From NCBI GenBank assembly GCA_947494565.1, contig CANLVG010000017.1, positions 1 to 36,212 on the forward strand: a DNA stretch of 36,212 nt, in the 5' to 3' direction. This document shows positions 596 to 31,224 of this stretch, in pieces (within the stretch, counting starts at the first letter, position 1; each line of letters begins with the position of its first letter). The DNA comes from an uncultured Flavobacteriaceae bacterium. GTDB lineage: Bacteria; Bacteroidota; Bacteroidia; Flavobacteriales; Flavobacteriaceae. Under the pieces are notes generated by a model. It ran no database searches, had not been told where the DNA came from, and worked only from the letters and a program-made list of their open reading frames with translations. The translations under genes were made by a program, and so were the position numbers.

Positions 596-3001
596 TTACA
601 TATCGATGTCGAATACCAAGGTATCCAACTCGGTCGCGGTCCATGGGGTGATCTTACCTTGGGTTCTAAAGCGAACGCCCCCAACTGTTCTGCTAGTCAC
701 TTCAGTACCTGAATTGCCCCATGCGTTTCTGATATAGGTCGCAATTGCTGCAATATCTTCATTTTGAAGCGTGGAAAAGGAGGGCATTTCAGGCAGGATA
801 TCTGGAGAGTCGTACATTTTTCCATCGACTTCAATGGGGCCTTGCATCCCATGTAAAAGAAGCATCGCCAGTTTTTCATCATCTTTTGTTACCCATTCCG
901 ATTTGTTAAGAGGAGGCGCAAAGCGTCTCATGCCTTCACCGCTGGTGCCGTGGCAACTAGCGCAGAGGTTCAAGTACTTTTGGCGCCCTTTCGCGAACAC
1001 TTTGCTATCGATATTGGAAGGAATGCCGCTAACCATATCGGATTCAGATTCGGAACTCGTTGCAAGACCGCTCACAAGTGCATTTTTAATCCAGTGGGTT
1101 TCTTCATCCGCATAGGTAGCCGTGATTCGTCTGAGGCGATCAATGTCCGTTTCAGATTCGGAATTGACGATTGCGGTAGCTAAAAGTTCGAGCATGATCT
1201 CATTGGTTTGTCTATGCGGTACCTGCTCCTTTAATACTACTTTCAGCATATCCATTTCCCTGTTTTCCAAACTGCTCATGACTACATCCCTTGCCAGTGG
1301 CAACGGACCGTAGGTACTTAAAAATTTACGGGAGGTGGTCAAGGCCAAGGCCGAATTCAAATGATGACTTGACAAGACCATTTGCATCTTTAAAATGGGT
1401 GCCGCAGTATCATAACTATTTCGAACAAAGTCCTCTATTTCCAAAAGGATCTCGGGATTCTTTTCGGTATTTCGAATGGCAAGTCGTAAGGCTGCCTGTG
1501 CTACTTTGGGGTCCGAAGCGCTTAGGGCCGACAAATAGATATCCGCTTTATGATACCCTAAACCCTCCAGGGTCCAAAGGGCATGTAGCTGCCCTAGCGG
1601 AGTGCCCTTTTCAATCAATTCCCCCAAGAAAGGTGCTAGGCTTACGTCTCCCTGCTCCACCAATAGGCGTTGGGCCGTATCCCTAGTCCAACCATTCTTG
1701 CTGTCCAGTTGTTCGACCAGCTCCTGAGGATTCAATTTTGATAAATCAGGGGTTCCTATGGGTTCCTTATTTTTGGAGGTTATCCGCCAAATACGTCCCA
1801 TATGTATGGGTTGGTCAAGTCCACGCTTCAACGTTTCTTCCCTAAGATAATCGGTCATGTAGGGGGCGTGTTGAATAACGCCCTTGTACATGTCTACGAC
1901 ATAGAGCGCACCGTCCGGGCCGGAAGCCAAAGAAATCGGTCTAAAACGTTCGTCTGTCGAAGCCAAAAACTCTTTACCGTCGTAGGTGTTTTTCGCCTGT
2001 AGCATGAAACCTTCCTCCCATAGTTCATTTTGTTTGATGAGGTTGGCAGTTGGTTCGCAAACGAAAGCATCACCATAATAGTTTTTAGGTAGCGCATGTC
2101 CGCGATGGATCAATGGGCCACAGGCGGAGGCAAATTCAAGAATCCGTCCTTTTTCATCCAATGTTCCGGGAACATACCCTCTATTGATCGCGGTATTACT
2201 GCGAATGGGAAATACTCTTCTGTCTAGGGTTAGTCCGTGATCGATCCCGGTCGTGGCCGTATGATGTCGATTTGCACTCAAGGCATTAGGGGGTACCAGA
2301 TCGGCATGTAGCTGTGACCAATTGTAATTGTAGAATAAGCGCCCCGCATCATCGTGGCAAATACCCCATTGTCCGCGAAACTCGGTGGTATCCTTGACCC
2401 AACTAGTGTTGATTTTCTTATAGCGGAATTTCGATTTCGCGTTATAGAACCAATTGTCCAATCCTCTTAAAAGGCCATTAGCGGAATGTTCCGGCACACC
2501 CAGACCTCCATATAAGGAATCGATCAGTATTTTTTTGTCCGCCCTGAAATCCCCATCACTATCCGAAACAAACCATAACGGCATATTTTCCGCGACTAAA
2601 ATACCCCCTTTGACTAGGGCCAATGCCCGAGGTAGTATCAGGCTGTCTAAAAAAGTCTGCCGACGGTCCATTTGGCCATCCCCGTTGTCATCGAACAACA
2701 CGGAAATCCGTCCAATTTTATCCTCTTCGCCCGTCCCGTCAATGTCCTGCATGAAACCCAGCATTTCGGCTACCCAGAGTCGCCCTCCTGCGTCGAAGGT
2801 AATAGCCACTGGATCTTGTACCAGCGGTTCGGAGGCCACCAATTGAATCGTAAGGTTTGGATCGGCCAATTGAAAAGTTTTCAATGCCTCATCTGGTGAA
2901 AGGGCAGGCGAGATGGGCTTTTCACAAGCGTCACAAAAGAACAAGACCATTCCCCCTAAAAAAAAGCTGCGCGTTGTTTTTGTGAAACGGCTAAAATTCA
3001 T
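596..3001 (-). CDS. Lipoprotein dehydrogenase: beta-propeller, HEAT repeats and C-terminal cytochrome c
   Basis: The 801-residue protein starts with a basic stretch and hydrophobic segment, with Cys at 23 and 26 as possible lipidation sites; neither lipobox is canonical. Residues about 40-400 match the membrane-bound dehydrogenase domain common in Planctomycetota and Bacteroidota (a PQQ-glucose-dehydrogenase-like propeller, with repeats such as DGPDGALYVVDMYKG). Residues about 420-640 look like HEAT/armadillo-type helical repeats. A class I cytochrome c domain closes the protein, with the CASCH haem motif at 680-684 and a MPSF segment further on that could give the axial Met. It is probably periplasmic and passes electrons from an oxidised sugar or polyol to the respiratory chain; the substrate is unknown. 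It is the last gene of the operon, 3 bp after the permease gene. Confidence 0.85.
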   Translation of the reverse strand: MNFSRFTKTTRSFFLGGMVLFFCDACEKPISPALSPDEALKTFQLADPNLTIQLVASEPLVQDPVAITFDAGGRLWVAEMLGFMQDIDGTGEEDKIGRISVLFDDNGDGQMDRRQTFLDSLILPRALALVKGGILVAENMPLWFVSDSDGDFRADKKILIDSLYGGLGVPEHSANGLLRGLDNWFYNAKSKFRYKKINTSWVKDTTEFRGQWGICHDDAGRLFYNYNWSQLHADLVPPNALSANRHHTATTGIDHGLTLDRRVFPIRSNTAINRGYVPGTLDEKGRILEFASACGPLIHRGHALPKNYYGDAFVCEPTANLIKQNELWEEGFMLQAKNTYDGKEFLASTDERFRPISLASGPDGALYVVDMYKGVIQHAPYMTDYLREETLKRGLDQPIHMGRIWRITSKNKEPIGTPDLSKLNPQELVEQLDSKNGWTRDTAQRLLVEQGDVSLAPFLGELIEKGTPLGQLHALWTLEGLGYHKADIYLSALSASDPKVAQAALRLAIRNTEKNPEILLEIEDFVRNSYDTAAPILKMQMVLSSHHLNSALALTTSRKFLSTYGPLPLARDVVMSSLENREMDMLKVVLKEQVPHRQTNEIMLELLATAIVNSESETDIDRLRRITATYADEETHWIKNALVSGLATSSESESDMVSGIPSNIDSKVFAKGRQKYLNLCASCHGTSGEGMRRFAPPLNKSEWVTKDDEKLAMLLLHGMQGPIEVDGKMYDSPDILPEMPSFSTLQNEDIAAIATYIRNAWGNSGTEVTSRTVGGVRFRTQGKITPWTATELDTLVFDIDM

Positions 3002-3004
3002 CTT

Positions 3005-4342
3005 TTAGAAAATAAAACTTGCAATGTACACGCATAATGCGGCAAAAGTGCCGACCACAAGAGTACCTAAAGTATATACACGATATCCTGTCTTTACATC
3101 AATACCTGAAAATTGGGTCAAAATCCAGAAACCGCTGTCGTTCGCATGTGAGACCACCATCGCTCCGGCACCGATTGCCGCGACCACTAGAGCCTTATCA
3201 ATTTCCGTAGAGAAGCCCATAGTCAGTAACAGCGGAGCTACGATAGATGCGGTAGTAATCAAAGCCACCGTTGAGGAACCTTGTGCCGTTTTGATCGCAG
3301 CACAGAGTAAAAAAGGAAGCCATATCCCTAAATTCGCACCCGATAGGGCATCTGCCAATACATCTGCAATACCGCTATTTTGAAGGATGGTTCCGAAAAT
3401 TCCACCTGCACCCGTTATAAGGATGATGTTCGAGGCATCCGCCAAAGCCTTTCCGACCCAACCACTGGTGGCCAACATTTCATTATCCCATTTTTTAGGA
3501 AGTAAAAAGGCGAACAACATACCGATGATCAAGGCAATAATCGGAGAACCGATAAAGGAAATAAAAGCGATAAGTCCAGTGGTTTCTTGACCTTCAGGAA
3601 GGTTGAATTCCATGATGGACTTCCCAACAATCAGCAGGATAGGAATCAGAATGGGCAAGAAAGATTTAAAGGCGCTCGGGGCTTCTTTCATTTTCTCTTG
3701 AATGACTTCATCCGTAACTTCAGGGTTTGGGTCTATGAAGTGTTTAGATCCCATTTTTTTACAATAGAAGATAGCCAATATCAATGATAGGATACCGATG
3801 ACCAAACCGACCAACATCACCAATCCGACATCCGCTCCGATGATTCCGGCAGCGGCTATAGGTCCTGGAGTAGGTGGAACCAAAACATGGGTAATCATCA
3901 GACCCAGAATCAATGCCGTGGCCGTACCTACTATGGAAAGTCCGGCGCGCTTGGTCAAACTCTTGTTCAAGGGATTCAGGATAATGAAACCACTATCCGC
4001 AAAAACCGGAATGGAAACAATAAAACCTACGATACCCATCGCCTCATGCACTCTTTTTTTGCCGATAACCTTTAGCACGACTTCCGCTAATTTGTAGGCC
4101 CCTCCGGAATGTTCCAGAAATGCTCCGATAATTACTCCTAAGACGATGACGATTCCTATTTTACCAAGAGTTACCCCAAATCCATCGTTTACGAATTTTA
4201 CAATGTCGTCCAATGACATTCCTGAAAAAAGGGCAAAGAAAATCGCTGCGGCCAGGAGTGCTAAAAACGGATGCACTTTAAGCCGTACAGTGAGTAAAAT
4301 AATAAGGAGTACACTAAGAACTAATAGGAGTATTGCAATCAT
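3005..4342 (-). CDS. GntP-family gluconate/sugar-acid:H+ symporter
   Basis: At 445 residues it has the usual length of the GntP family. It is almost wholly hydrophobic, with about 12 membrane segments starting at residue 2. Family-like stretches include FLEHSGGAYKLAEV, IPVFADSGFIIL, a proline/glycine-rich HVLVPPTPGPIAAAGIIGAD, and the C-terminal SHANDSGFWILTQFSG. The family imports aldonic acids (gluconate, and other sugar acids in paralogues) across the inner membrane with protons. The gene lies 12 bp after the dehydratase gene and 3 bp before the cytochrome-c dehydrogenase gene, so the imported acid is probably the dehydratase substrate. Family assignment is secure; the exact acid is not. 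Confidence 0.93.
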   Translation of the reverse strand: MIAILLLVLSVLLIILLTVRLKVHPFLALLAAAIFFALFSGMSLDDIVKFVNDGFGVTLGKIGIVIVLGVIIGAFLEHSGGAYKLAEVVLKVIGKKRVHEAMGIVGFIVSIPVFADSGFIILNPLNKSLTKRAGLSIVGTATALILGLMITHVLVPPTPGPIAAAGIIGADVGLVMLVGLVIGILSLILAIFYCKKMGSKHFIDPNPEVTDEVIQEKMKEAPSAFKSFLPILIPILLIVGKSIMEFNLPEGQETTGLIAFISFIGSPIIALIIGMLFAFLLPKKWDNEMLATSGWVGKALADASNIILITGAGGIFGTILQNSGIADVLADALSGANLGIWLPFLLCAAIKTAQGSSTVALITTASIVAPLLLTMGFSTEIDKALVVAAIGAGAMVVSHANDSGFWILTQFSGIDVKTGYRVYTLGTLVVGTFAALCVYIASFIF

Positions 4343-4354
4343 AATAAGGTTGGT

Positions 4355-6085
4355 TTAATGTGCATCACGTGTCACTTTTGAACTGGATTTTCCCACCAGA
4401 AAATCAAGGTCGGCACCTAGGTGGGCTTGTTCAACAGTACTCGTATAAAGTTTGGTATAGCCTCTTTTCGCCTGAGGTTCTGGCGCTTTCCATACCGCTC
4501 TTCGCTTCTCAAGTTCGGCATCGGTTACTTCAAGATGTAATTTTCGATTCGGTACGTCCAGTACAATGTAATCACCACTTTCGACGAGACCAAGTACGCC
4601 TCCGACCGAAGACTCCGGTGATACATGTAGTACAACGGTTCCGAAAGCCGTACCGCTCATTCGGCCATCGGAAATACGGACCATATCCTTGATTCCTTTT
4701 TTCAGGAGTTTTTCCGGTATTTCCATGTTGCCTACCTCAGGCATTCCGGGGTACCCTACGGGCCCGACACCTTTGAGTACCATGACACTATTTTCGTCGA
4801 TATCCAGATCAGGGTCGTCGACGGTGGATAGAAATTCTTCTATAGTCTCGAATACCACAGCTTTTCCACGGTGTGACATTAGCTCAGGTGTTGCTGCGGA
4901 AGGCTTAATGACCGCACCGTTCTCGCATAAATTACCATATAGAACCGCAATTCCCGCTTCTTTGATAATGGGGGAGTCAATCGGTGATATAACCTCTTTA
5001 TTAAAGCACTCGGCATGCTGGTTGTTTTCTCCAATCGATTTACCATTGACCGTTATGGCATCGTTGTGTAAATGATCGGTCATTTCCTTGATGACAACGG
5101 GTAGCCCGCCAGCATCAAAAAAGTCTTCCATTAAAAAGGTGCCGGAAGGCATAAGGTTCACCAGTAGCGGGATTTTACTCCCCAAATCGTCAAAATCCTT
5201 TAGATCAAGTTGCACACCTATTCTCCGAGCTATCGCCGTTAGGTGAATGATGAAATTGGTGGAACCGCCTATTGCGGCATTTATTTTTATAGCATTTTCA
5301 AAAGCTTCCCGGGTCAATATTTTCGAGAGCTTCAAATCTTCTCTGACCATATCGACAATACGTCTTCCTGATAGTTGGGCCATCACTTTTTTACGTGAAT
5401 CCACAGCAGGAATGGCCGCGGCCCCAGGCAAGGTCAACCCAAGGGATTCGACCATGCATGCCATGGTCGATGCTGTACCCATGGTCATACAATGTCCGGA
5501 ACTTCGAGCGGAACATATTTCTGCTTCGATTTGATCTGCTTCGGTAAAACCTTCATTTTTGATTTTGTCTTTCAATTGCCATACAAAAGTTCCTGAGCCA
5601 ATACGCTCACCTTTATACTTGCCGTTCAACATGGGGCCTCCGGGAACCACAATGGTGGGTAAATCTACGCTACAGGCGCCCATTACAGTTGAAGGCGTGG
5701 TCTTATCGCAACCAGTAAGTAGCACTACGCCGTCGAGCGGATTGGCGCGAATGGTTTCCTCCGTATCCATGGCTGCCAGATTTCTAAAGAGCATGGCCGT
5801 CGGGCGCATTAAGATCTCTCCCAAGCTTGTCACCGGAAATTCGAACGGAACTCCTCCCGCTTCCAGAACACCGCGTTTGACGAATTCCGCAAACTCGCGA
5901 AGATGTCCGTTACAAGGTGTGAGATCGGACCAGGTATTACAAATACCAATGACCGGTCTGCTTCTAAAGTAATCATCAGGATACCCCTGGTTGCGCAACC
6001 AGGAACGATGGATAAAGGCAGATTTCGGATCTACGGGACTGAACCAATCCGAACTGCGTAATTTTTCCTTATTCTTTTTTTTCAT
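4355..6085 (-). CDS. IlvD/Edd-family sugar-acid dehydratase (L-arabinonate/pentonate dehydratase type)
   Basis: The 576-residue protein belongs to the Fe-S dehydratases that turn aldonic acids into 2-keto-3-deoxy acids. The Cys pattern fits the [2Fe-2S] ligands of the L-arabinonate dehydratase subgroup: C58 in CNTWSDLTPCNGH, C126 in TGCDKTTPS and C199 in SGHCMTMGTAST. The CNTWS-LTPC sequence and neighbours separate it from housekeeping dihydroxy-acid dehydratase. The C-terminal SDGRMSGTAFG carries the serine taken as catalytic base in the family. It heads a three-gene minus-strand operon with a sugar-acid permease and an envelope dehydrogenase. The substrate could be arabinonate, xylonate, fuconate or another aldonate; a fucosidase locus in the same window makes fuconate worth testing, but this is inference. 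Confidence 0.9.
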   Translation of the reverse strand: MKKKNKEKLRSSDWFSPVDPKSAFIHRSWLRNQGYPDDYFRSRPVIGICNTWSDLTPCNGHLREFAEFVKRGVLEAGGVPFEFPVTSLGEILMRPTAMLFRNLAAMDTEETIRANPLDGVVLLTGCDKTTPSTVMGACSVDLPTIVVPGGPMLNGKYKGERIGSGTFVWQLKDKIKNEGFTEADQIEAEICSARSSGHCMTMGTASTMACMVESLGLTLPGAAAIPAVDSRKKVMAQLSGRRIVDMVREDLKLSKILTREAFENAIKINAAIGGSTNFIIHLTAIARRIGVQLDLKDFDDLGSKIPLLVNLMPSGTFLMEDFFDAGGLPVVIKEMTDHLHNDAITVNGKSIGENNQHAECFNKEVISPIDSPIIKEAGIAVLYGNLCENGAVIKPSAATPELMSHRGKAVVFETIEEFLSTVDDPDLDIDENSVMVLKGVGPVGYPGMPEVGNMEIPEKLLKKGIKDMVRISDGRMSGTAFGTVVLHVSPESSVGGVLGLVESGDYIVLDVPNRKLHLEVTDAELEKRRAVWKAPEPQAKRGYTKLYTSTVEQAHLGADLDFLVGKSSSKVTRDAH

Positions 6086-6111
6086 TTAGTTATTGGGATG
6101 GTATGAGTGTA

Positions 6112-6142
6112 TTAAAGTAAACATCTTTGTGCTAGTTCGCAA
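6112..6142 (-). promoter_or_regulatory. Candidate Bacteroidota-type promoter for the dehydratase operon
   Basis: On the minus strand a TTTTG (TTG at 6142-6140) lies 20 bases before TACTTTAA (6119-6112). This resembles the Bacteroidota primary-sigma pattern TTTG-N17-23-TAnnTTTG with one or two mismatches in the -7 box. Transcription would start near 6105, about 20 bases before the ATG at 6085. Confidence 0.4.
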
Positions 6143-6304
6143 AATGGAACGACTTTAAATCGAACTTCCCATCTTTTTTGGTTGTAGTATTCAAAATGGG
6201 AAAGGAGCTTATGACGCATTACCCTGATTCTTTTTAAATAGGTCGCACGCCACAATAAAAATCCTTACTTTAGAATGGTGTTTTTGTGAAAGTGAACAAT
6301 ATAC

Positions 6305-7372
6305 ATGAGACGGAGAAGGTTTATCAAAAATTCTGCTAGCGGTGCCTTGGCAATGGGATTCCCCCTGATTTCTGCCTTGCCCGCTTCTTTGAAAGAAACT
6401 AGATTCGGGGCGGCAGAGGCGACCTTTATGATACGTAGGTATCGCAACTTGAAGAGTGCGAAATACCCGCAATACGATAACGCACTGCAAATGATCGAAC
6501 ATTTTAGTTCAATGGGTTTCAAAGGTGCCCAATTGACGATGTATGGGCTCGATTCCGCACTAGCCAAAAAAATTCTTCGACGTCGTGAAGAATTGAACTT
6601 CTTTATGGAAGGGCAAATCAAATTACCAAAAGACACCAATGATATTGACCGCTTTGAACAGCAGGTACGAGAGACCAAAGAAATGGACGTTGATATTATT
6701 CGAACGGTCTGTCTCTCGGGAAGGCGCTATGAGAACTTTGACACGAACGAAGCGTTTCAAGTATTCAGGAAAGCCTCGGAAACTTCCTTGCAACTGGCCG
6801 AACCGATTATGCGGAAGCACCGTATACGGCTAGCCGTTGAGAACCACAAAGATTGGCGTGCGACGGAGTTTCTTGAAATCTTAAAAGCCCTTGATAGTGA
6901 ATGGGTCGGGGTGACTCTTGACACGGGCAATAATATTTCGCTTCTGGAAGACCCCATGGAAGTCGTAAGAGCTCTAGCACCCTATGCCTTTACGGTACAT
7001 TTAAAAGATATGGCCGTCGAGACGTATGAAGACGGATTTTTACTGTCGGAAGTGAATTTGGGCGAGGGGTTTTTGGATATCGAGGGAATGATTTCCGAAA
7101 TCCGTACCCATAACCCTGATATCCGGTTTAATTTGGAGATGATTACTAGGGATCCACTTAAGGTTCCATGCTTGACGGAAGCTTATTGGGCCACATTTGG
7201 CGCTATTTCCGCTGCCGAACTTGCTACTTTTCTCGGAAAGGTCAGGAAGTATGAATCAAAATCGGCCCTGCCTCGAATTTCGAATAAATCCGCGGATGAA
7301 CAATTGGCTTTGGAAATCGAGAATAACAAAACTTCGGTACAGTTTGCCAAGAAAAATTATGGTTTTCGTTAA
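6305..7372 (+). CDS. Tat-exported sugar phosphate isomerase/epimerase-like TIM-barrel protein
   Basis: The 355-residue protein begins with a twin-arginine signal (RRRRFIKNSASGALAMGF) and a hydrophobic stretch ending about residue 27, so it should be folded in the cytoplasm and exported. The body is an AP-endonuclease-2/xylose-isomerase-like TIM barrel with typical metal and strand motifs: RLAVENHKDW, GVTLDTGNN, FTVHLKDM and FNLEMITRD. Such proteins isomerise, epimerise or act on keto-sugars, often with a bound divalent metal; the precise reaction cannot be read. It is the first gene of a plus-strand pair with an SDR, 19 bp apart, divergent from the sugar-acid operon, which suggests a shared pathway. 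No clear -7 box was found upstream. Confidence 0.85.
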   Translation: MRRRRFIKNSASGALAMGFPLISALPASLKETRFGAAEATFMIRRYRNLKSAKYPQYDNALQMIEHFSSMGFKGAQLTMYGLDSALAKKILRRREELNFFMEGQIKLPKDTNDIDRFEQQVRETKEMDVDIIRTVCLSGRRYENFDTNEAFQVFRKASETSLQLAEPIMRKHRIRLAVENHKDWRATEFLEILKALDSEWVGVTLDTGNNISLLEDPMEVVRALAPYAFTVHLKDMAVETYEDGFLLSEVNLGEGFLDIEGMISEIRTHNPDIRFNLEMITRDPLKVPCLTEAYWATFGAISAAELATFLGKVRKYESKSALPRISNKSADEQLALEIENNKTSVQFAKKNYGFR

Positions 7373-7391
7373 CTAATGACTCAAAAATAAG

Positions 7392-8177
7392 ATGATAGAT
7401 ACCACATTACCCGGAATAGCACTTTTTGATTTAAAAGGTAAAAATGCGATGATTACAGGAGGCTCCAAAGGATTAGGTCTTGCTATGGCCGCTGGCTTGG
7501 CCTCGGCCGGTGCCAATATCGCCCTGGTCAATAGAAAGCTTGACGAAGGGCAGGCCGCCGCCGAATCACTTTCAAAAACTTACGATATCGAGGCAAAGGC
7601 CTATGCCGCTGATGTCACTGAGGCTTCGCAGATCAATCAAGCCGTAGCTTTGGCCCAGAAGGATTTCGGCAGTGTTGATATCTTGATCAATAGTGCCGGC
7701 ATTAATATTCGAGGGGCGATCGATGAACTTTCGCATGATGAGTTTCACCAGGTGATGAAAGTCAATGTAGATGGTATCTGGTTGGCTTCCAAGGCCGTAG
7801 TGCCCCAAATGAAGGAAAACGGTTGGGGGCGCATCATTAATATGGCGAGTACACTTGGTTTGGTGGGGCTTGCCAATAGAACTCCCTATGCGACTAGTAA
7901 AGGTGCAGTGGTTCAAATGACGCGCGCCCTAGGTCTTGAATTGGCACCGTTCAACATAGCGGTCAATGCGATTTGTCCGGGACCTTTCTTGACGGAAATG
8001 AATATTCCCATAGCGGGTACGGAAGAGGCCAAGAAGTTTATTGTTGGGGCTACAGCCTTGGCGCGGTGGGGAGAACTCAAGGAAATTCAAGGTGCCGCTC
8101 TTCTTCTGGCCAGTGACGCAGGCAGTTATATGGTGGGCTCGATGCTGACCGTTGACGGAGGATGGACGGCTAAATAA
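7392..8177 (+). CDS. SDR-family oxidoreductase, gluconate 5-dehydrogenase-like
   Basis: This is a 261-residue classical short-chain dehydrogenase. The Rossmann motif TGGSKGLG is at 22-29, NSAG at 100-103, and the catalytic Ser153, Tyr166 and Lys170 (YATSK) are all present. ICPGPFLTEMN and the C-terminal SMLTVDGGW are also standard. The overall sequence resembles gluconate 5-dehydrogenase and 2-keto-3-deoxy sugar-acid dehydrogenases, which interconvert hydroxy and keto forms of sugar acids with NAD(P)H in the cytoplasm. Position next to the TIM-barrel gene and the divergent aldonate dehydratase/permease operon supports a sugar-acid substrate. The family is certain; the substrate is inferred. 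Confidence 0.92.
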   Translation: MIDTTLPGIALFDLKGKNAMITGGSKGLGLAMAAGLASAGANIALVNRKLDEGQAAAESLSKTYDIEAKAYAADVTEASQINQAVALAQKDFGSVDILINSAGINIRGAIDELSHDEFHQVMKVNVDGIWLASKAVVPQMKENGWGRIINMASTLGLVGLANRTPYATSKGAVVQMTRALGLELAPFNIAVNAICPGPFLTEMNIPIAGTEEAKKFIVGATALARWGELKEIQGAALLLASDAGSYMVGSMLTVDGGWTAK

Positions 8178-8352: not shown

Positions 8353-9201
8353 ATGCAAGTAGAGAATGTGGGCGAACAGCTATTGGAGATTCTCCAGAAA
8401 AATGTAGCTGTTGAATCGAACAAGTGGTTGATGGACAAAATCACTGGTATTTGTGCGGATAAATCAACGAAACAGCTCTACCTCACCTACAGTCTCATCG
8501 GATCTAAAATAGTTGCGAATCAGCGCATTGAAATACCTGGGGAATCGGCCTTAAATGAGTATCTATCAATGCAAGGGACTACCTGTACCCAAATAGCACG
8601 AATTTACCTGCTGATTCGTGTATTGAACTTCGATCACCAGTTTTTTTCACCCAAGGTGGCCAATATCATACAAGTAGCGGATACTGGGGAATTGGAGACT
8701 TTTCTAAAGTTTTTGATTCTGTTGCCACGTCCGGAAGACTACGTTGCCACAGCTGTAGACGCTTTACGGACGAACATCTCTACCGTGTTCAATGCGATTG
8801 CATATCACAATCCGTATCCAGCCCGTTTTTTTAACGAGCAACAGTGGAATCAAATGTATTTGAAAACAGCTTTTATGCAAGGTGACTTAAGTGCTTTGGC
8901 CCAAATCGATAAGCGGGCCAACGCCGAGTTAGCTCGAATAATTGCCGACTATGCGCATGAGCGATGGGCGGCCTCACGTGATATCGATCCCTATTTTTGG
9001 CGTCCGGTCAGCCGATTTTTAGATGAAGCTTTGCTAGAGGATATGAAGCGCTTGTTGTCCAGTGAAAACAGTAAGGAGAATGCTGCAGGGGCACTATGTT
9101 GTTTTTATTCCGGAAATCCATCGGCCAAGGCCCTATTGGATGATTACCAGGATCTAACTATTCAAATAGAAGAAAAAAAATTAAGTTGGAATACACTTTA
9201 A
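8353..9201 (+). CDS. eboA: EboA domain-containing protein
   Basis: The 282-residue soluble, mainly alpha-helical protein has no signal peptide or membrane segment. The segment HNPYPARFFNEQQWNQMYLKTAF near residues 155-178 is the hallmark stretch of the EboA family, and the order of the next five genes confirms it. The molecular function of EboA is unknown; in scytonemin-making cyanobacteria the ebo genes are needed to get the scytonemin monomer to the periplasm. It is the first gene of the cluster, followed after 10 bp by eboB. Helical-repeat character suggests a protein-binding role, but that is only an impression. Confidence 0.88.
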   Translation: MQVENVGEQLLEILQKNVAVESNKWLMDKITGICADKSTKQLYLTYSLIGSKIVANQRIEIPGESALNEYLSMQGTTCTQIARIYLLIRVLNFDHQFFSPKVANIIQVADTGELETFLKFLILLPRPEDYVATAVDALRTNISTVFNAIAYHNPYPARFFNEQQWNQMYLKTAFMQGDLSALAQIDKRANAELARIIADYAHERWAASRDIDPYFWRPVSRFLDEALLEDMKRLLSSENSKENAAGALCCFYSGNPSAKALLDDYQDLTIQIEEKKLSWNTL

Positions 9202-9211
9202 AGAAAGCGTT

Positions 9212-10120
9212 ATGGAAGAAAAAATGATGATCATCGACCCGCATGTGCATATGACATCCCGAACAACGGATGATTATGAAGCCATGGCAAAGGCCGGTGT
9301 GGTTGCCCTTATCGAACCTTCTTTTTGGTTGGGCCAACCTCGAACACAGGTGGGCTCTTTTCAAGATTACTACAGCAGTCTGGTCGGTTGGGAACCCTTT
9401 AGGGCCAGCCAATTCGGTATTCAGCATTATTGTACTATTGGTCTGAATTCGAAAGAGGCCAACAATGAGGCATTGGCCGAGCAGGTAATCGAATTATTAC
9501 CCCTCTATGTTCATAAGCAAAATGTGGTGGCTATCGGTGAAATAGGTTATGATGACCAAACCCCGGCGGAGGACAAGTATTTTAGAATCCAATTGGAGAT
9601 GGCCAAGGAGCTCGGTATGGTGGTACAAGTACATACGCCACATCGTGACAAAAAAGCCGGTACCATAAAAAGTATGGAAGTCTGTTTGGAACACGGTCTG
9701 GATCCATCAATGGTTGTAATCGACCATAATAATGAGGAAACGGTACAAGAGGTTTTAGATCGCGGCTTTATCGCCGCTTTTACCATTTACCCCAAAACAA
9801 AGATGGGCAATGAGCGAATGGTAGAGGTGGTCAGGAAATTCGGCAGTGATAATATCATCGTCGACAGTTCTGCAGATTGGGGTGTCAGTGATCCGTTGGC
9901 AGTTCCGAAAACGGCTTCCCTGATGCTTAAAAGAGGCATCGATCGCGCAGATGTGGTTAAAACCTGCTATAAAAATGCACTCGATATTTTCGGAAAAAAC
10001 GGAAAAATGAAGGAGTCGGACTGGTTGAACCCAAAGGGAATCAATCAGACACAGTTGTACAATGATAATAGTGTACTACGCGGACAAGAACCCAAGGTGG
10101 ATATTGATAAGATCGTTTAA
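9212..10120 (+). CDS. eboB: EboB, TatD-like metal-dependent hydrolase
   Basis: This 302-residue amidohydrolase-fold protein keeps the TatD metal ligands: HVH at 11-13 (DPHVHM), Glu110 in AIGEIGYDD, His141 and His144 in VHTPHRD, DH at 171-172, and a late Asp in DSSADWG. TatD relatives hydrolyse nucleic acids or small cyclic substrates; the Ebo version has an unknown substrate. No signal peptide, so cytoplasmic. Alternative starts exist at Met5 and Met6, just before the first metal motif. Its stop codon directly abuts the eboC start codon, pointing to translational coupling. Confidence 0.9.
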   Translation: MEEKMMIIDPHVHMTSRTTDDYEAMAKAGVVALIEPSFWLGQPRTQVGSFQDYYSSLVGWEPFRASQFGIQHYCTIGLNSKEANNEALAEQVIELLPLYVHKQNVVAIGEIGYDDQTPAEDKYFRIQLEMAKELGMVVQVHTPHRDKKAGTIKSMEVCLEHGLDPSMVVIDHNNEETVQEVLDRGFIAAFTIYPKTKMGNERMVEVVRKFGSDNIIVDSSADWGVSDPLAVPKTASLMLKRGIDRADVVKTCYKNALDIFGKNGKMKESDWLNPKGINQTQLYNDNSVLRGQEPKVDIDKIV

Positions 10121-11011
10121 ATGAACCCGATTCTTATAGGGTATTTGCGATTAATGCGCCCGGCCAATTTGCCTACGGCAGCGGCCGATATTTTGGCAGG
10201 GGTCGCCCTATCAAGCTGGTTCATCGGTGCCGGGGTGTCATCTACATCGCTTTTTCCCATTCTTTTTTTGGTGATTGCTTCTGTATTTCTATATGCTGGT
10301 GGTGTAGTGTTGAACGATGTATTCGATTTTGAAATCGATAAAGTAGAGCGACCGGAGCGAGCGCTTCCTAGTGGTTTGATCTCCGTAAGGTCCGCGGCTC
10401 TATTCGGGGCGGTTTTGCTGAGCATTGGAGTGGTTTTTGCCTTTTGGGTGACTTCCCTGAGTGGCCTAATTGCAATCGCCTTGGCTTTAGCTATATTGGC
10501 CTATGACGGTTTTTCAAAGAAATATGATTTTTTAGGTCCCTTGAATATGGGACTCTGTAGGGCATTGAACCTGTTGCTTGGTATTTCGATCGTTTCTCAA
10601 TTGCCGAATTGGGAGTATGCCTGTATTCCTTTGATTTATATTTTTGCGATAACATTGATCAGTAGGGGGGAAGTGCACGGTGATAACAAGAAACATTTGG
10701 TATGGGCGGGCTTCGTATACGCTTCGGTAATTTTTATCGTTGTGGTTATGGCCCTCTATAGAACCGATAGTGTTATGCAGACCATTCCCTTTCTGACGCT
10801 TTTCGCATTTTTGGTCTTTCGACCTCTGGTCAAGGCGTATCATGAGAATTCTCCAATGAATATCAAAAAGGCCGTTATCAGCGGAGTACTTTCAGTGGTG
10901 GTCTTGGATGCGGCAATTGCATCGGGTCACACCGTGTGGTGGTATGCTGTACTCATTCTTTTGTTGTTGCCATTATCCATACTTTTATCAAAACTATTTG
11001 CAGTTACTTAA
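10121..11011 (+). CDS. eboC: EboC, UbiA-family membrane prenyltransferase
   Basis: The 296-residue integral membrane protein has about eight or nine hydrophobic helices. The first Asp-rich motif of UbiA prenyltransferases, NDxxDxxxD, is exact at 65-73 (NDVFDFEID) and is followed by the usual KVERPERALPSG. The second motif region appears as LAYDGFSKKYDFLGPLNMGLCRALN. Family members transfer an isoprenoid chain from a diphosphate donor to an acceptor in the inner membrane. Neither donor nor acceptor is known for EboC; a product of EboD is a reasonable candidate acceptor. The ATG starts immediately after the eboB stop. Confidence 0.92.
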   Translation: MNPILIGYLRLMRPANLPTAAADILAGVALSSWFIGAGVSSTSLFPILFLVIASVFLYAGGVVLNDVFDFEIDKVERPERALPSGLISVRSAALFGAVLLSIGVVFAFWVTSLSGLIAIALALAILAYDGFSKKYDFLGPLNMGLCRALNLLLGISIVSQLPNWEYACIPLIYIFAITLISRGEVHGDNKKHLVWAGFVYASVIFIVVVMALYRTDSVMQTIPFLTLFAFLVFRPLVKAYHENSPMNIKKAVISGVLSVVVLDAAIASGHTVWWYAVLILLLLPLSILLSKLFAVT

Positions 11012-11020
11012 ATTCAGTTG

Positions 11021-12178
11021 ATGTCTCAGACACCTATAAAACAAGACTTTTCCGTTACTTTTACGTATCAACTCTACTTTACGGAGCATCTTTTCAATAT
11101 TGAAAATCCACTCTTCAAAACGGTGGTGGAAGGGTACAAAACACATACCCGCCTAAAAGTACTTTTTGTCATTGACCATGGGGTGGAACGTGCACATCCT
11201 GAACTTCGGAATTCAATAGTGAACTACTGTAAGTCGCATTCGGAATGTTTGGAGTATACTGCAAGTTTGGTCATACCTGGGGGTGAAGTATGTAAAAATG
11301 ACCCAGAAGCCGTGCAAACCGTACTCAGGGCTATCAATGAAGAACATATTGATCGGCATTCCTTTGTTGTTGCCATTGGAGGTGGTGCTATCATTGATAT
11401 GGCTGGTTATGCCGCGGCAATAGCACACAGAGGCGTGAAGCTGATTCGAATACCGACCACCGTACTCTCACAGAATGACTCGGCCGTAGGGGTGAAAAAC
11501 AGTGTCAATAGTTTCGAAAAGAAGAATTTCCTGGGCACCTTCGCACCCCCTTATGCCATTATAAATGACACGGTTTTTTTACACACCTTGGAGCAGCGAG
11601 ATTGGATTGCCGGTATTGCAGAGGCCATCAAGGTAGCCTTGATCAAGGACCGTGCTTTTTTCGAGTATCTTGAAGGGAATGCAGAGGGGCTCAAGAATCG
11701 CGAGATGATTCCAATTGAATATGTCATTTATAAATGTGCTGAAATGCATATGCACCATATCGCCCAAGGGGGTGACCCTTTTGAAAATGGATCGTCGCGA
11801 CCTTTGGATTTTGGGCATTGGGCAGCACACAAGATGGAACAAATGTCCAACTATGAGTTGCGACATGGCGAGGCTGTGGCCAAAGGTATTGCTTTGGATA
11901 TGGTCTATGCCCATTTAACGGGATTGGTGTCAGAAACCGTTTTGAATCGTATTCTTAACGTGATGAAGGCCATCGGTTTCGATTTGCGGATACCGGTTTC
12001 TACGGATCAGGAGATGGACACTCTCTTATTGGGCATCCAAGAATTTCAAGAACATCTTGGAGGCGAGCTTTGTATTACCCTGATTTCTGAAATAGGAGTA
12101 AAGCGCGATGTCAACAGTATTTCTTACGATACGATGAAAAGAGCCATTACGGAATTGAATCATACCTATCTAAACTAA
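11021..12178 (+). CDS. eboD: EboD, sugar-phosphate cyclase of the 3-dehydroquinate synthase superfamily
   Basis: I start this 385-residue protein at the ATG at 11021 rather than the TTG just before it. It has the NAD-binding GGGAIIDMAGYAAA, then RIPTTVLSQNDSAVGVKNSVN, AEAIKVALIKD, DFGHWAAHKMEQ and RHGEAVAKGIALD, i.e. the cofactor and metal-ligand frame of sugar-phosphate cyclases. The VGVKN and DFGHWAAHK wording is closer to the C7-cyclitol synthases (2-epi-5-epi-valiolone synthase-like and EboD) than to housekeeping AroB. It likely cyclises a sugar phosphate such as sedoheptulose 7-phosphate, but substrate and product are not proven. It lies 9 bp after eboC and 6 bp before eboE. Confidence 0.9.
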   Translation: MSQTPIKQDFSVTFTYQLYFTEHLFNIENPLFKTVVEGYKTHTRLKVLFVIDHGVERAHPELRNSIVNYCKSHSECLEYTASLVIPGGEVCKNDPEAVQTVLRAINEEHIDRHSFVVAIGGGAIIDMAGYAAAIAHRGVKLIRIPTTVLSQNDSAVGVKNSVNSFEKKNFLGTFAPPYAIINDTVFLHTLEQRDWIAGIAEAIKVALIKDRAFFEYLEGNAEGLKNREMIPIEYVIYKCAEMHMHHIAQGGDPFENGSSRPLDFGHWAAHKMEQMSNYELRHGEAVAKGIALDMVYAHLTGLVSETVLNRILNVMKAIGFDLRIPVSTDQEMDTLLLGIQEFQEHLGGELCITLISEIGVKRDVNSISYDTMKRAITELNHTYLN

Positions 12179-12184
12179 TCTCAA

Positions 12185-13390
12185 ATGCGCATCAACGATA
12201 GTGCTCATCTGACCTATTGCACCAACATTCATCCCGGTTCAAATTGGGAACGCACGTTCAGCAGCTTGAAAGCTTATGTACCCTTGATCAAAAAGGAAGT
12301 GGCGAACGAGCAGGCTTTTGGTCTGGGGCTGCGCCTGTCTAACAAGGCCAGTGAAGAATTAGGCCTGGGCCCTCGGCTCAGTGAATTTAAAACCTGGCTG
12401 CAAGAAAATGATATATATGTGTTTACCATGAACGGTTTCCCCTATGGGAATTTTCATGATGAGCGCGTAAAGGATAATGTGCATGCGCCTGATTGGACAA
12501 CAAAGGAGCGCCTAACCTACACCAGACGTCTCTTTACCCAATTGGCGGAGCTACTTCCCGATGCTATGGACGGGGGGATTTCGACCTCTCCCATTTCGTA
12601 CAAACACTGGCATATATCGCAAGATGCAAAGCACCAAGCGTTTACAAAGGGAGCTGCGCATTTGTGCGAAGTGGTGCTACAACTACATGATATTGAACTG
12701 CGCACAGGAAAATACCTGCACCTTGACTTGGAACCGGAACCTGATGGACTCATTGAGAATTGTGACGAGTTCTTGTTCTTTTTCGATACCTATCTGCTTC
12801 CGATAGCGCAAGAGGCCTTGGTCAAAGAACTATCCATTTCAACGGAGGAGATTGTAGCTTTGGTGAAGCGCCATATTACCATGTGCTATGACATCTGCCA
12901 TTTTTCATTAGCCTATGAAGAACCAGAAAGCACATTTCAAAAGCTTTCGGAATGCGGAATCGGCATTGGAAAAATCCAGGTCAGCGCCGCATTGAAGATT
13001 CTATATGCCGAGGACGAAATGGAGGCCATTTGGGAATCACTGGCCCGCTTTGATGAACCGACCTATCTGCATCAAGTCACTGAAATGATCGACGGAAAAG
13101 TACATACCTACAATGATCTGCCTATTGTTTTAAAAGAGCGCAAGGTGTTTACCGAGCTGCGCGCGCACTTTCATGTACCCATTTTCTTGGAACAATTCGG
13201 CAAATTGTATTCTACCCAAGATCATATTCTAAAGGTGACCGAATATCTTAAAGGGAAGACCATATCGAATCATTTGGAAATAGAAACCTATACTTGGGAT
13301 GTGCTACCGAAAGAGTTGAAGAAAGACCTATCGGATTCCATTGTCCGAGAAATCGAATGGTTAAAGAAAATAGTGATGTTCAATGCGTAA
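12185..13390 (+). CDS. eboE: EboE, xylose-isomerase-like TIM-barrel protein
   Basis: The 401-residue soluble protein opens with LTYCTNIHPGSNWE, typical of EboE, and contains TIM-barrel strand/metal motifs such as YVFTMNGFPYG, HLDLEPEPDG, TMCYDICHFSLAYEEP and GKIQVSAALK. The His, Glu and Asp residues in these segments could bind a divalent metal. It resembles xylose isomerase-like proteins, so isomerisation or epimerisation of a sugar or cyclitol phosphate is plausible; no reaction has been established to my knowledge. It follows eboD after 6 bp and overlaps eboF by 8 bp (ATGCGTAA at 13383-13390), a sign of coupled translation. Confidence 0.9.
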   Translation: MRINDSAHLTYCTNIHPGSNWERTFSSLKAYVPLIKKEVANEQAFGLGLRLSNKASEELGLGPRLSEFKTWLQENDIYVFTMNGFPYGNFHDERVKDNVHAPDWTTKERLTYTRRLFTQLAELLPDAMDGGISTSPISYKHWHISQDAKHQAFTKGAAHLCEVVLQLHDIELRTGKYLHLDLEPEPDGLIENCDEFLFFFDTYLLPIAQEALVKELSISTEEIVALVKRHITMCYDICHFSLAYEEPESTFQKLSECGIGIGKIQVSAALKILYAEDEMEAIWESLARFDEPTYLHQVTEMIDGKVHTYNDLPIVLKERKVFTELRAHFHVPIFLEQFGKLYSTQDHILKVTEYLKGKTISNHLEIETYTWDVLPKELKKDLSDSIVREIEWLKKIVMFNA

Positions 13391-14753
13391 GACAGTCGTA
13401 ATCAATGTGGTCGGTCTGACCAAGCGCTTGATCGGGGAACACACTCCCCGTATCAAATCCTTTCTTGAAAAAGGAAAACAGGCGGTAATCCATCCGGTAT
13501 TACCGGCGGTCACCTGTGCCGCGCAATCTACTTATCTCACTGGAAAAAATCCTTCCGAACATGGTATTGTGGGTAATGGTTGGTACTTTAAGGACGAATG
13601 CGAGGTCAAGTTCTGGCGGCAGTCGAACAAGTTGGTGCAAGGTGAGAAATTATGGGACGTACTCAAAAGAGAAGACCCAAAGTTCACCTGTGCGAACATG
13701 TTTTGGTGGTATAATATGTATTCTACGGCGGACTACAGTGTCACACCCCGCCCAAACTATTTGGCCGATGGCAGAAAGATTCCCGATTGTTACTCCCACC
13801 CTGCGGAACTGCGAGATACCCTACAAGACCAACTGGGCACTTTTCCGTTATTCCATTTTTGGGGGCCTAAGACCACGATTAAGTCGAGCCAATGGATTGC
13901 AGATGCCACCATCAAAACAGATGAGTTGCATCATCCTACGTTGACCTTGGTATATCTGCCCCATCTCGATTATAATATACAGCGCTACGGACTTGACTTT
14001 AATGTCATTGGCAAAGATTTGGAAGAAATCGATGCGGTCGTAGGCCAACTCCTATCACACTATGAAAATCAGGATGCCCATATCGTCCTGCTTTCGGAAT
14101 ACGGTATTACGGATGTTGACCATCCGGTTCACCTCAATCGCGTGTTGCGAAAGGAAGGATATGTAAATATTCGTACAGAAAGAGGGCTTGAACTCTTGGA
14201 TGCAGGAGCCAGTCAGGCTTTTGCAGTAGCTGATCATCAAGTGGCACATATCTATTTAAATGACACTACATTGAAGGCGAAAGTCAAAAAATTGATTGAA
14301 GACTTGGATGGTGTCGAAAGGGTATTGTCAGACGAAGAAATTGCCAATGCAAATTTGGATCACCAACGCTGTGGTGACCTCGTGGTCATTGCCGATTCAC
14401 GCTCTTGGTTTACCTACTACTTTTGGTTGGATGATAAGAAAGCACCTGATTTCGCACGTATGGTGGATATTCATAAAAAGCCAGGGTATGATCCTGTCGA
14501 AATGTTGACCGACCCCAAAGACCCATTTGTGATGCCCAAGGTTATCGGAAAACTGATTCGCAAAAAATTAGGGTTTAGAACGGTGATGAACATCATTCCC
14601 TTAGATGCCAAATTGGTGAAGGGCTCGCATGGAAGAATTCCAGAGGATGAAGATGACTACCCCATTTTTATAACGAATGCGACAACAATGGAAATCGACC
14701 CGAAAATTGATTCGACAGCGGTTTTCGAGGTGTTAAAGGCTCATGTTACCTAA
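13383..14753 (+). CDS. eboF: EboF, alkaline phosphatase/nucleotide pyrophosphatase-superfamily protein
   Basis: This 456-residue protein has the type I phosphodiesterase/nucleotide pyrophosphatase fold: PAVTCAAQSTYLTG with a threonine in the nucleophile position, SEHGIVGNGWYF, LPHLDYNIQRYG, LLSEYGITDVDHPV and a late GSHGR. These supply the Asp/His ligands of a two-metal site. There is no signal peptide, so unlike many relatives it should act in the cytoplasm. It may remove or hydrolyse a phosphate or phosphodiester on the pathway intermediate. It closes the cluster; 32 bp further a gene on the other strand ends, and I see no strong terminator between them. Confidence 0.9.
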   Translation: MRKTVVINVVGLTKRLIGEHTPRIKSFLEKGKQAVIHPVLPAVTCAAQSTYLTGKNPSEHGIVGNGWYFKDECEVKFWRQSNKLVQGEKLWDVLKREDPKFTCANMFWWYNMYSTADYSVTPRPNYLADGRKIPDCYSHPAELRDTLQDQLGTFPLFHFWGPKTTIKSSQWIADATIKTDELHHPTLTLVYLPHLDYNIQRYGLDFNVIGKDLEEIDAVVGQLLSHYENQDAHIVLLSEYGITDVDHPVHLNRVLRKEGYVNIRTERGLELLDAGASQAFAVADHQVAHIYLNDTTLKAKVKKLIEDLDGVERVLSDEEIANANLDHQRCGDLVVIADSRSWFTYYFWLDDKKAPDFARMVDIHKKPGYDPVEMLTDPKDPFVMPKVIGKLIRKKLGFRTVMNIIPLDAKLVKGSHGRIPEDEDDYPIFITNATTMEIDPKIDSTAVFEVLKAHVT

Positions 14754-14785: not shown

Positions 14786-15073
14786 TTAAGCCCTAAGTGA
14801 AGAGAATTCACTTTTCAGTAGATTGAGTTTTAGCTGCAACTCATTTAGATGTTGAGCAGAGACCGATTCTTGGGATACTAAGCGGTTGGCCTGAAAAATA
14901 CCATAATTCAAAGAAATTGTGAATGCTCGGGTTTCTTCATACTTGTGACTTCTCAACTTTCCGGAATAATCCGCTTCAAAGGCCATTCTCAAATTATAGA
15001 ATTTTTGCACTAAGCTTGTCGTACGATCATTGATGTTTTTAGACTTTGAAGTTTGCTCTTTCGTGGTCATCAT
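14786..15073 (-). CDS. Hypothetical protein, about 95 residues, helical
   Basis: I do not recognise this protein. I start it at the tandem ATG at 15073 (MMTTKEQ); a longer frame reaches 15181 but its first 36 residues look like untranslated sequence. The protein is hydrophilic, with predicted helices rich in Leu, Glu, Gln and Lys (HLNELQLKLNLLKSEFSSL) and a Tyr/Phe-containing middle part. There is no signal peptide. It lies convergent to eboF and downstream of the OmpA gene on the same strand, 282 bp away, so probably has its own promoter. It could be a small regulatory or structural helical protein. The frame runs uninterrupted and ends cleanly, which is the main support. Confidence 0.5.
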   Translation of the reverse strand: MMTTKEQTSKSKNINDRTTSLVQKFYNLRMAFEADYSGKLRSHKYEETRAFTISLNYGIFQANRLVSQESVSAQHLNELQLKLNLLKSEFSSLRA

Positions 15074-15190
15074 AGGGTTTACGGAATTAAAAGTTTGGGT
15101 CGATATTTGAAAGTTATCATTCGAATACCTCTTCAAATACGCACTAATTATTTTTAGAGCCAACAATAATCGACAAAACACAATAATCTG

Positions 15191-30899: not shown

Positions 30900-31170
30900 A
30901 TGTCAGTTTTATTTGTTCGTAGCCGTATCTCAGCTTGGTCTGGAACCAAGTTTTGTATCCCTTGCTTAGTTCTTTTCCCCACTTGGATTAGTGCACAATC
31001 AGTGGACTATGAAGCTACTTGGCCATCATTAAGACAGCATCAGACCCCAGAATGGTTTAAGGATGTCAAGTTTGGCATATCTAACTTGCGGTTATTGGGA
31101 AGGACTCTTCAACCGAAATACAAAAAAACACCAACGAGCATACCGGTCATTTTCAGAAATGAGAAAATAG
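30900..31170 (+). pseudogene. Glycosidase relic: GH29-like N-terminus joined out of frame to another glycosidase-like C-terminus
   Basis: An ATG at 30900 opens a frame with a signal-peptide-like segment (CLVLFPTWISAQS) and then YEATWPSLRQHQTPEWF followed by KDVKFGI, the start of a GH29 alpha-L-fucosidase; the intact GH29 in this window has NYKDPEWFNDQKFGIFIHWG at the same place. After FGI (about 31079) the frame loses sense and runs to 31196. In the +1 frame from 31087 one reads CGYWEGLFNRNTKKHQRAYR with a stop at 31168-31170, which resembles the C-terminal end of clan GH-A glycosidases. This is best explained by a large internal deletion with loss of frame. The second identification is weaker than the first. 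Confidence 0.7.
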
Positions 31171-31224
31171 GGGAGTACGCCTTTGTATTGAAATAGAACA
31201 AAAAAAGTAAAATACGTAACGATT

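Follow-up and report, generated by a model that had tools for sequence, protein, structure and literature searches.

The DNA analyzed here (the window) is the whole of contig C17, 36,212 bases from an uncultured Flavobacteriaceae bacterium, and it carries a complete ebo cluster, eboA to eboF. The cluster itself is not new; it is a standard cluster of the ABCDEF type, a complete copy of a known kind. An overlooked membrane protein, TMEM220, emerged from the comparison of genomes as a possible seventh member. The TMEM220 gene was consistently linked to ebo and co-occurred with it in Bacteroidota, and its product is predicted to be a likely Ebo partner in many members of the phylum, encoded in trans in the present genome. 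In the strongest form of this proposal, the Bacteroidota Ebo system would have TMEM220 as a seventh component, with four hydrophobic segments and acting as a flippase-like or anchoring membrane partner for the Ebo product or cargo, and EboF would be a metal-altered ligand binder of the alkaline phosphatase superfamily, not a phosphodiesterase. This combined proposal is tentative, and we consider it unlikely to hold as a whole.

Linkage and Co-occurrence of TMEM220 with ebo

The neighborhood of the cluster was compared in 121 stretches, comprising the window and 120 others fetched by EboE (40 plus the best 80 of at least 585 confirmed), and their open reading frames (ORFs) were clustered into families. 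EboE was recovered in 117 of them, and four (L066, L073, L077, and L120) had no called EboE despite the match by which they were fetched. Each of the six ebo families was present in 105 to 118 of the 121 stretches; order, strand, and family identity are therefore far beyond chance. The comparison of conserved neighbors that had been advised in the preliminary description returned the six-family cluster and one further family that stood out, a protein of approximately 120 amino acids in 47 of the 121 stretches. Five of these 47 proteins were scanned, and all of them matched PF15071 (TMEM220) above the cut-off.

The TMEM220 gene was located just downstream of eboF in 27 of the 47 stretches and just upstream of eboA in 15, in both cases on the same strand. 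In the other five, it preceded eboE of a rearranged cluster (L075), stood some 3 kb downstream of the cluster (L045), or was either adjacent to it on the opposite strand or more distant (L106, L150, and L153). Of the 47 TMEM220 genes, 41 were within 50 bp of the nearest ebo gene and 44 shared its strand; small overlaps between TMEM220 and ebo genes could be due to start codons placed too far upstream. Because some stretches share a genome (for example, L046/L082 and L051/L098), only 46 of the 47 TMEM220 sequences are distinct. When these were aligned with the TMEM220 protein of the window genome (47 rows), residues F16, N25, D26, D28, W32, E89, R92, E93, and G96 were invariant. The protein of the window genome showed four hydrophobic peaks.

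The distribution of ebo was patchy, since EboE matches were found in 11 of 14 genomes of the genus, 51 of 299 of the family Flavobacteriaceae, and 31 of 395 of the phylum. TMEM220 was present in 46 of 51 ebo-positive and 23 of 248 ebo-negative genomes of the family sample (Fisher's test, p = 5e-31), and in 24 of 31 and 25 of 364, respectively, of the phylum sample (p = 6e-19); these p-values ignore phylogeny, and the two samples overlap, with 41 genomes of the window's family included in the phylum sample. One genome in each sample (G532 and G098, respectively) had a TMEM220 match below the Pfam cut-off and was dropped; the tallies with them are 70 and 50. After collapsing the family sample to genera, the proportions were 40 of 44 and 19 of 192, and outside the window's family the phylum sample gave 20 of 27 and 24 of 327. 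When the phylum sample was collapsed to families, 10 of 12 ebo families had TMEM220 (p = 2.5e-5, where N = 52 is the highest family code seen and not a known total). Of 80 named ebo-positive genomes, 50 were examined, and TMEM220 was present in 43 of them. The co-occurring pairs were linked in 40 of 46 genomes of the family sample and unlinked in 18 of 24 of the phylum sample. Among the gene neighbors of TMEM220 at 29 of 30 phylum loci, no other family occurred in more than four loci.

The link might instead reflect shared ancestry and chance synteny rather than function, an explanation that we regard as possible but doubtful. The stretches were chosen by EboE similarity, with the best 80 of at least 585 included, so near relatives weigh heavily, and the co-occurrence figures disregard phylogeny; however, the association survived the collapse to genera, the exclusion of the window's family, and the collapse to families. 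Likewise, TMEM220 stands between miaE and dnaX without ebo at that place in L213, L214, L216, and L221 to L224, and it is found in two genomes lacking ebo (G001 and G013), while two cyanobacterial ebo genomes do without it; against this, TMEM220 genes adjoined either end of the cluster at short distances, and most co-occurring pairs of the phylum sample were unlinked. In addition, miaE, which is also a direct ebo neighbor at the usual Flavobacteriaceae site, was not significantly associated with ebo as a control in the phylum sample (14 of 31 ebo-positive versus 113 of 364 ebo-negative genomes, p = 0.11). A functional partnership of TMEM220 with Ebo is preferred here.

Several observations weigh against this partnership. 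EboE had no match in G001 and G013, which are each 99% complete and keep TMEM220, and the 23 family genomes mentioned above have TMEM220 without ebo. Conversely, ebo occurred without TMEM220 in 5 of 51 family genomes and 7 of 50 named genomes; these 7 include both of the cyanobacterial ebo-positive genomes tested (L127 and L159, both metagenome-assembled genomes, MAGs). Owing to these exceptions in both directions, TMEM220 is neither universal nor dedicated to ebo.

miaE and dnaX were themselves considered as ebo partners and were rejected, as they belong to one synteny block (21 and 24 stretches, respectively) and miaE lacked a significant association, which was tested for miaE only. Among the literature matches listed, there was no publication joining TMEM220 with Ebo terms and no title on bacterial TMEM220. 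The proposals on the TMEM220 partner and on the altered EboF site were not met among these matches either and are presented as predictions from sequence.

Position of the Cluster and Probable Horizontal Transfer

The genome (5.39 Mb, 45 contigs) is 99.99% complete and encodes a single TMEM220 as an intact ORF on contig C6 (76072-76428, corresponding to 10072-10428 of L192), between miaE and dnaX, with 51 bp separating the miaE and TMEM220 ORFs. In many relatives ebo lies between miaE and TMEM220 at this site; in the window genome it lies elsewhere. The cluster had been called an intact functional unit in the preliminary description: its six genes are indeed intact, but its standing as a unit is an interpretation, and the TMEM220 gene, a direct neighbor of ebo in many relatives, is found on a different contig in this genome. 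The order miaE-TMEM220-dnaX without ebo was also detected in L210/L211 (G009/G005) and L217/L218 (G474/G660), whose genomes have ebo elsewhere, and in L213/L214 (G001/G013), L216, and L221 to L224, whose genomes have no EboE match. As an alternative to displacement from this site, some lineages may have gained ebo by insertion into a pre-existing miaE-TMEM220-dnaX arrangement.

In the concatenated Ebo tree, the window grouped with G004, G009, G005, L083, and L084 with 98% support in the SH-like approximate likelihood ratio test (SH-aLRT), and none of these clusters is at the miaE-dnaX site as far as the stretches show. The G474 and G660 clusters formed a pair apart from this group, and the position of ebo has thus changed more than once. 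G004 belongs to the same genus as the window genome, and its concatenated Ebo row is identical to that of L082 (Maribacter sp.); by inference, the window genome shares its genus with a Maribacter MAG.

A housekeeping tree was built from dnaX, ppk, miaE, and pdxH; it includes the window genome, G009, G005, G474, and G660, and not G004, L083, or L084. In this tree the window genome stood with G013, and G009 stood with G001. The housekeeping genes rejected a clade of the window, G009, and G005 (p = 0.0017 in the approximately unbiased test, p-AU), and the Ebo proteins rejected the housekeeping grouping of seven genomes (p-AU = 6e-7); both values are optimistic because the groups were picked after a first tree. 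The likeliest explanation is horizontal transfer of ebo to its present place, and duplication with loss is a possible source of the conflict between the trees.

A rearrangement within the genome, with no horizontal transfer, could also have brought the cluster to its present place. Parts of the downstream flank are common to the window, L044, L046, and L050, and duplication followed by differential loss could yield the same trees; the mutual rejection of the two groupings, chosen post hoc as they were, speaks against such a rearrangement, which we therefore consider unlikely.

Fold and Metal Site of EboF

EboF matched PF01663 with 221.4 bits (cut-off 23). Its AlphaFold2 model had a mean predicted local distance difference test score (pLDDT) of 85.5, with residues 356-375 below 50, and Foldseek matched the model to phosphonoacetate hydrolase (1ei6_A; E = 4.3e-17; template modeling scores of 0.62/0.69). 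The protein is predicted to adopt an alkaline-phosphatase-like fold, as do phosphonoacetate hydrolase and the nucleotide pyrophosphatase/phosphodiesterase (NPP) enzymes.

Residue conservation was counted in aligned rows of 80-125% of the length of the window protein, with identical rows counted once (98 rows for EboA, 103 for EboB, 102 for EboC, 110 for EboD, 113 for EboE, and 111 for EboF). We take the two-metal site of type I phosphodiesterases to consist of D, T, D, H, D, H, and H, according to the ligands of NPP and PhnA. At these seven positions EboF has V10, T44, D196, Q200, E239, Y240, and H416, and the canonical two-metal site is thus absent. V10, Q200, and Y240 were found in 111 of 111 rows and E239 in 110; the corresponding residues of 1ei6 are D, H, H, and D, respectively. 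T44, D196, and H416 are retained, the last being matched by motif and not by alignment.

From these residues we infer that EboF binds a phosphate- or sugar-bearing ligand and is not a classical two-metal phosphodiesterase. It is quite conceivable, at somewhat less than even odds, that EboF is instead catalytically active as a phosphohydrolase and uses a metal site of non-canonical composition. The presumed nucleophile T44 is kept together with D196 and H416, so that EboF could still use one metal, which counts against a mere binder, and the invariant D284, H285, and H289 could serve as further ligands; however, four presumed ligand positions (D, H, D, and H) are V, Q, E, and Y in 110 to 111 of the 111 rows. 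The reading of EboF as a ligand binder is retained in the following.

EboD and the Housekeeping AroB

EboD matched NF004852, its highest-scoring model, with 551.2 bits (cut-off 333). The active-site residues do not support the name of this model, 3-dehydroquinate synthase (DHQS), for EboD. All 110 rows had D264 and H244 at the positions occupied in AroB-type enzymes by N and K, which are presumably N268 and K250 of DHQS in Aspergillus numbering. At the position of the AroB D-K-K motif, whose Lys we take to be K356, EboD has F-Q-E (F-(R/Q)-E in the family); of the 110 rows, 79 have Arg as the middle residue, 30 have Gln, and 1 has Lys, and a basic residue is thus kept in most relatives and not in the window. 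D154, K160, K169, N170, E202, K205, R261, H267, H271, and H283 were kept in all 110 rows.

A separate AroB is encoded on contig C11 of the same genome and retains the DHQS residues (LNYGHTLGH, IKNSVV, and FDKKN). The possibility that EboD is a redundant AroB was rejected in view of this second protein and the differences in the active site. Among 16 solved cyclases, the profile alignment of EboD began at residue 14-15 only for 4p53 (ValA) and 5tpr, in line with the published placement of EboD near sedoheptulose 7-phosphate cyclases (PMC5133447), and ValA 4p53 ranked 6th or 7th among the solved matches. EboD is probably a sugar phosphate cyclase distinct from the housekeeping AroB, as judged from its sequence.

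EboA, EboB, EboC, and EboE

The profile search of the six proteins agreed with the families assigned earlier: EboA (by its domain model), EboC, and EboE exceeded Ebo-specific cut-offs, EboD was recognized through NF004852, and EboB and EboF through PF01026 and PF01663.

EboA scored 149.9 bits with the domain model NF035938 (cut-off 50) and 159.4 bits with the longer subfamily model NF035937, below its cut-off of 320, and it had no Pfam match at E of 0.001 or less. Its AlphaFold2 model (mean pLDDT 94.5) contained 18 helices, and Foldseek returned only weak HEAT/ARM-type matches (best E = 0.08). EboA is a probable solenoid-like helical scaffold according to the model, compatible with the TPR-like scaffold proposed for it (PMC6282210).

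EboB matched PF01026 with 68.1 bits (cut-off 27), and its closest solved relative by sequence was 3guw AF_1765. H11, H13, E110, H141, H172, and D222, which we take to be the TatD-type metal ligands, were kept in 103 of 103 rows. No Ebo-specific model in Pfam or NCBIfam matched EboB or EboF. The relatives in ebo clusters were 62-93% identical to EboB and 52-82% identical to EboF of the window, and the two proteins can be assigned by sequence to Ebo subgroups of the TatD-like and type I phosphodiesterase families, respectively.

EboC scored 377.7 bits with NF035940 (cut-off 250), and its first Asp motif, N65-D66-xx-D69-xxx-D73, was kept in 102 of 102 rows. EboE scored 473.7 bits with NF035939 (cut-off 250) and had no match in Pfam and no sequence match in the PDB at E of 1 or less; it has been described as xylose-isomerase-like (PMC5133447). 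E183, E185, D236, H239, H328, H330, E365, and E367 of EboE were each found in 113 of 113 rows.

Proposed Role of the Ebo Proteins

We propose, with a probability of roughly 0.45, that Ebo supports export by means of a carrier, either a prenylated cyclitol or a prenylated aromatic compound, which is synthesized at the membrane, and that EboA, EboF, and TMEM220 assist in this. EboD would form a cyclitol by cyclization of a sugar phosphate, which is likely sedoheptulose 7-phosphate, and EboE and EboB, with their conserved metal-type active-site residues, could isomerize or hydrolyze the cyclitol. EboC in the inner membrane would then add a farnesyl-type chain to the cyclitol or to an aromatic acceptor. 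EboA would act as the helical scaffold and EboF would bind a phosphate- or sugar-bearing ligand. TMEM220 may be a small membrane partner in many Bacteroidota, forming a carrier or export device with EboA and EboF, and the amphipathic product, or the assembled complex, would let a hydrophobic metabolite leave the cytoplasm. The gene content, the families, the residue conservation, the linkage and co-occurrence of TMEM220, and the different position in the genome were observed; the substrates, the order of the steps, and the roles of EboA, EboF, and TMEM220 are conjectured.

The model is supported by residues of EboB, EboE, and EboC (first motif) that are presumed to be catalytic and are invariant in 102 to 113 rows. 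In the cited literature, the need for ebo in moving a metabolite to the periplasm is shown in Nostoc only: in Nostoc punctiforme, the scytonemin monomer stays in the cytoplasm whichever of the ebo genes under study is deleted (Klicki et al. 2018, PMC6282210). The eboD gene of this organism is nearby but outside the cluster and was not among the genes analyzed (PMC6282210).

Besides the TMEM220 exceptions and the possible single-metal activity of EboF, the following points argue against the carrier model. The EboC acceptor in vitro was aromatic and not a cyclitol (PMC9235831), the D188 position of EboC, near the second UbiA motif, was not conserved in the 102 rows, and Klicki et al. did not find a lipid-conjugated monomer (PMC6282210). 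Further, the cited ebo literature names neither a product nor a natural substrate nor an export phenotype for a Bacteroidota ebo cluster, which agrees with the remark in the preliminary description that the product is not established.

Ebo could alternatively be purely biosynthetic and yield a secreted or cell-bound protective compound, such as an isoprenoid-cyclitol or a prenylated quinoline serving, for example, as a grazing deterrent, so that the export defect of Nostoc would be indirect. The enzyme set was read in this way when an isoprenoid-cyclitol product was proposed (PMC5133447), EboC prenylates 8-hydroxyquinoline-2-carboxylic acid (8-HQA; PMC9235831), and transposon insertions in the eboA, eboD, or eboE homologues of Pseudomonas fluorescens make the strain edible to Caenorhabditis elegans (as related in PMC6282210). 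Nevertheless, one and the same cytoplasmic intermediate accumulated in each Nostoc ebo mutant studied (PMC6282210), a pattern more in keeping with translocation than with a pathway of successive steps, and we rate the purely biosynthetic role as improbable compared with a carrier supporting export.

The question of the product or cargo of ebo has been open since 2016, and near relatives with, without, or with displaced ebo, together with a specific membrane partner and a corrected view of EboF, make it directly testable in common marine laboratory strains. The same work may offer a starting point for understanding the function of TMEM220 in bacteria.

Cluster Layout and Flanking Genes

The six ORFs lie in the order eboA-eboB-eboC-eboD-eboE-eboF on the forward strand between positions 8353 and 14753, and all are open from start to stop (Table 1). 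The gaps from eboA to eboE are 10, 0, 6, and 6 bp, and eboE and eboF overlap by 8 bp; the complete, ordered, one-strand cluster reported earlier was confirmed in all of these details. An in-frame ATG at 11021 follows directly on the called TTG of eboD, and it is probably the true start.

Table 1. Positions of the ebo genes and of the adjoining downstream gene in the window
Feature	Position	Strand	Description
eboA	8353..9201	+	All-helical soluble protein, alpha-solenoid-like, probable scaffold
eboB	9212..10120	+	TatD-like metallo-hydrolase (PF01026)
eboC	10121..11011	+	UbiA-type membrane prenyltransferase (NF035940)
eboD	11018..12178	+	Probable sugar phosphate cyclase other than AroB; called start TTG
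eboE	12185..13390	+	EboE-family TIM-barrel protein (NF035939)
eboF	13383..14753	+	Predicted alkaline-phosphatase-superfamily fold, metal site altered (PF01663)
131-aa protein	14786..15181	-	Flanks the relocated cluster; not an ebo gene; no Pfam match

The window contains 53 ORFs of at least 80 amino acids, many of which are chance frames, and the Pfam scans took in 8, 9, 6, and 1 of them. As had been noted from the sequence, no scytonemin-type biosynthesis genes were found among the ORFs scanned, and the remaining genome was not searched for them.

Upstream of the cluster, genes of a sugar-acid type occupy positions 596-8177 (DUF7133/cytochrome c, GntP permease, EDD/ILVD dehydratase, TIM barrel, and short-chain dehydrogenase/reductase, SDR), and the stretches under comparison showed no conservation of these genes alongside ebo. 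The TIM barrel (6305-7372) and the SDR (7392-8177) were rejected as ebo members, as an SDR directly before the cluster and on its strand was present in 2 of the 121 stretches including the window. In the second case (L050), the SDR was just 32% identical to that of the window.

Downstream, relatives of the 131-amino-acid protein adjoin ebo in L044, L046, and L050. A short ORF at 30900-31196 with a marginal alpha-L-fucosidase match is located ahead of a full-length one at 32261-33817 and is possibly a gene remnant. In other genomes, the EboE match of G192 (contig C1, 3566071-3567236) consists of two overlapping pieces in different frames, possibly a broken copy or a sequencing error, and in Arenibacter a gene of about 1,120 amino acids separates eboA from eboB in L088 and immediately precedes eboB in L089, L091, and L092.

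Comparison with Known Systems

The ebo genes were named by Yurchenko et al. (2016, PMC5133447), who found Bacteroidetes to be the most represented phylum and ABCDEF to be the ancestral order there. The earlier view that ebo in Bacteroidota had not been described is thus mistaken, as Bacteroidetes clusters have been in print since 2016 and their EboC was assayed in 2022 (PMC9235831). The window cluster resembles the operon of PMC5133447 in its six families, order, and strand, and both have the EboA and not the EboG variant, whereas the window copy does not occupy the site at which many Flavobacteriaceae relatives carry ebo. TMEM220 occurs 0 times in the main text of PMC5133447, and the altered metal site of EboF is not mentioned in the sections consulted.

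The scytonemin-export ebo cluster of Nostoc punctiforme has the same gene families, whereas no scytonemin genes appeared among the scanned ORFs of the window; in the cited ebo literature, export is demonstrated in Nostoc and not in Bacteroidota. The EboC enzymes (UbiA-297) of Maribacter sp. MS6, Zobellia uliginosa, and Algoriphagus machipongonensis, which farnesylate 8-HQA, were assayed alone in membrane fractions (PMC9235831). They are homologous to the ebo prenyltransferase of the window, and the Maribacter enzyme comes from what is probably the genus of the window genome. The "EDB" (edible) cluster of P. fluorescens, like the window, contains a full ebo cluster (as described in PMC6282210), with additional genes and in a different phylum. 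The ebo genes have also been reported in an algal endosymbiont, with gene transfer involving algal plastids (PMC6092422).

Human TMEM220 is found in the Golgi and affects the secretion of glycoproteins (PMC6979480). The ebo-linked protein belongs to the same Pfam family, PF15071, whereas the human role concerns protein secretion; if TMEM220 is indeed a seventh Ebo component, this family, implicated in secretion in humans, would be tied to the export of small molecules in bacteria.

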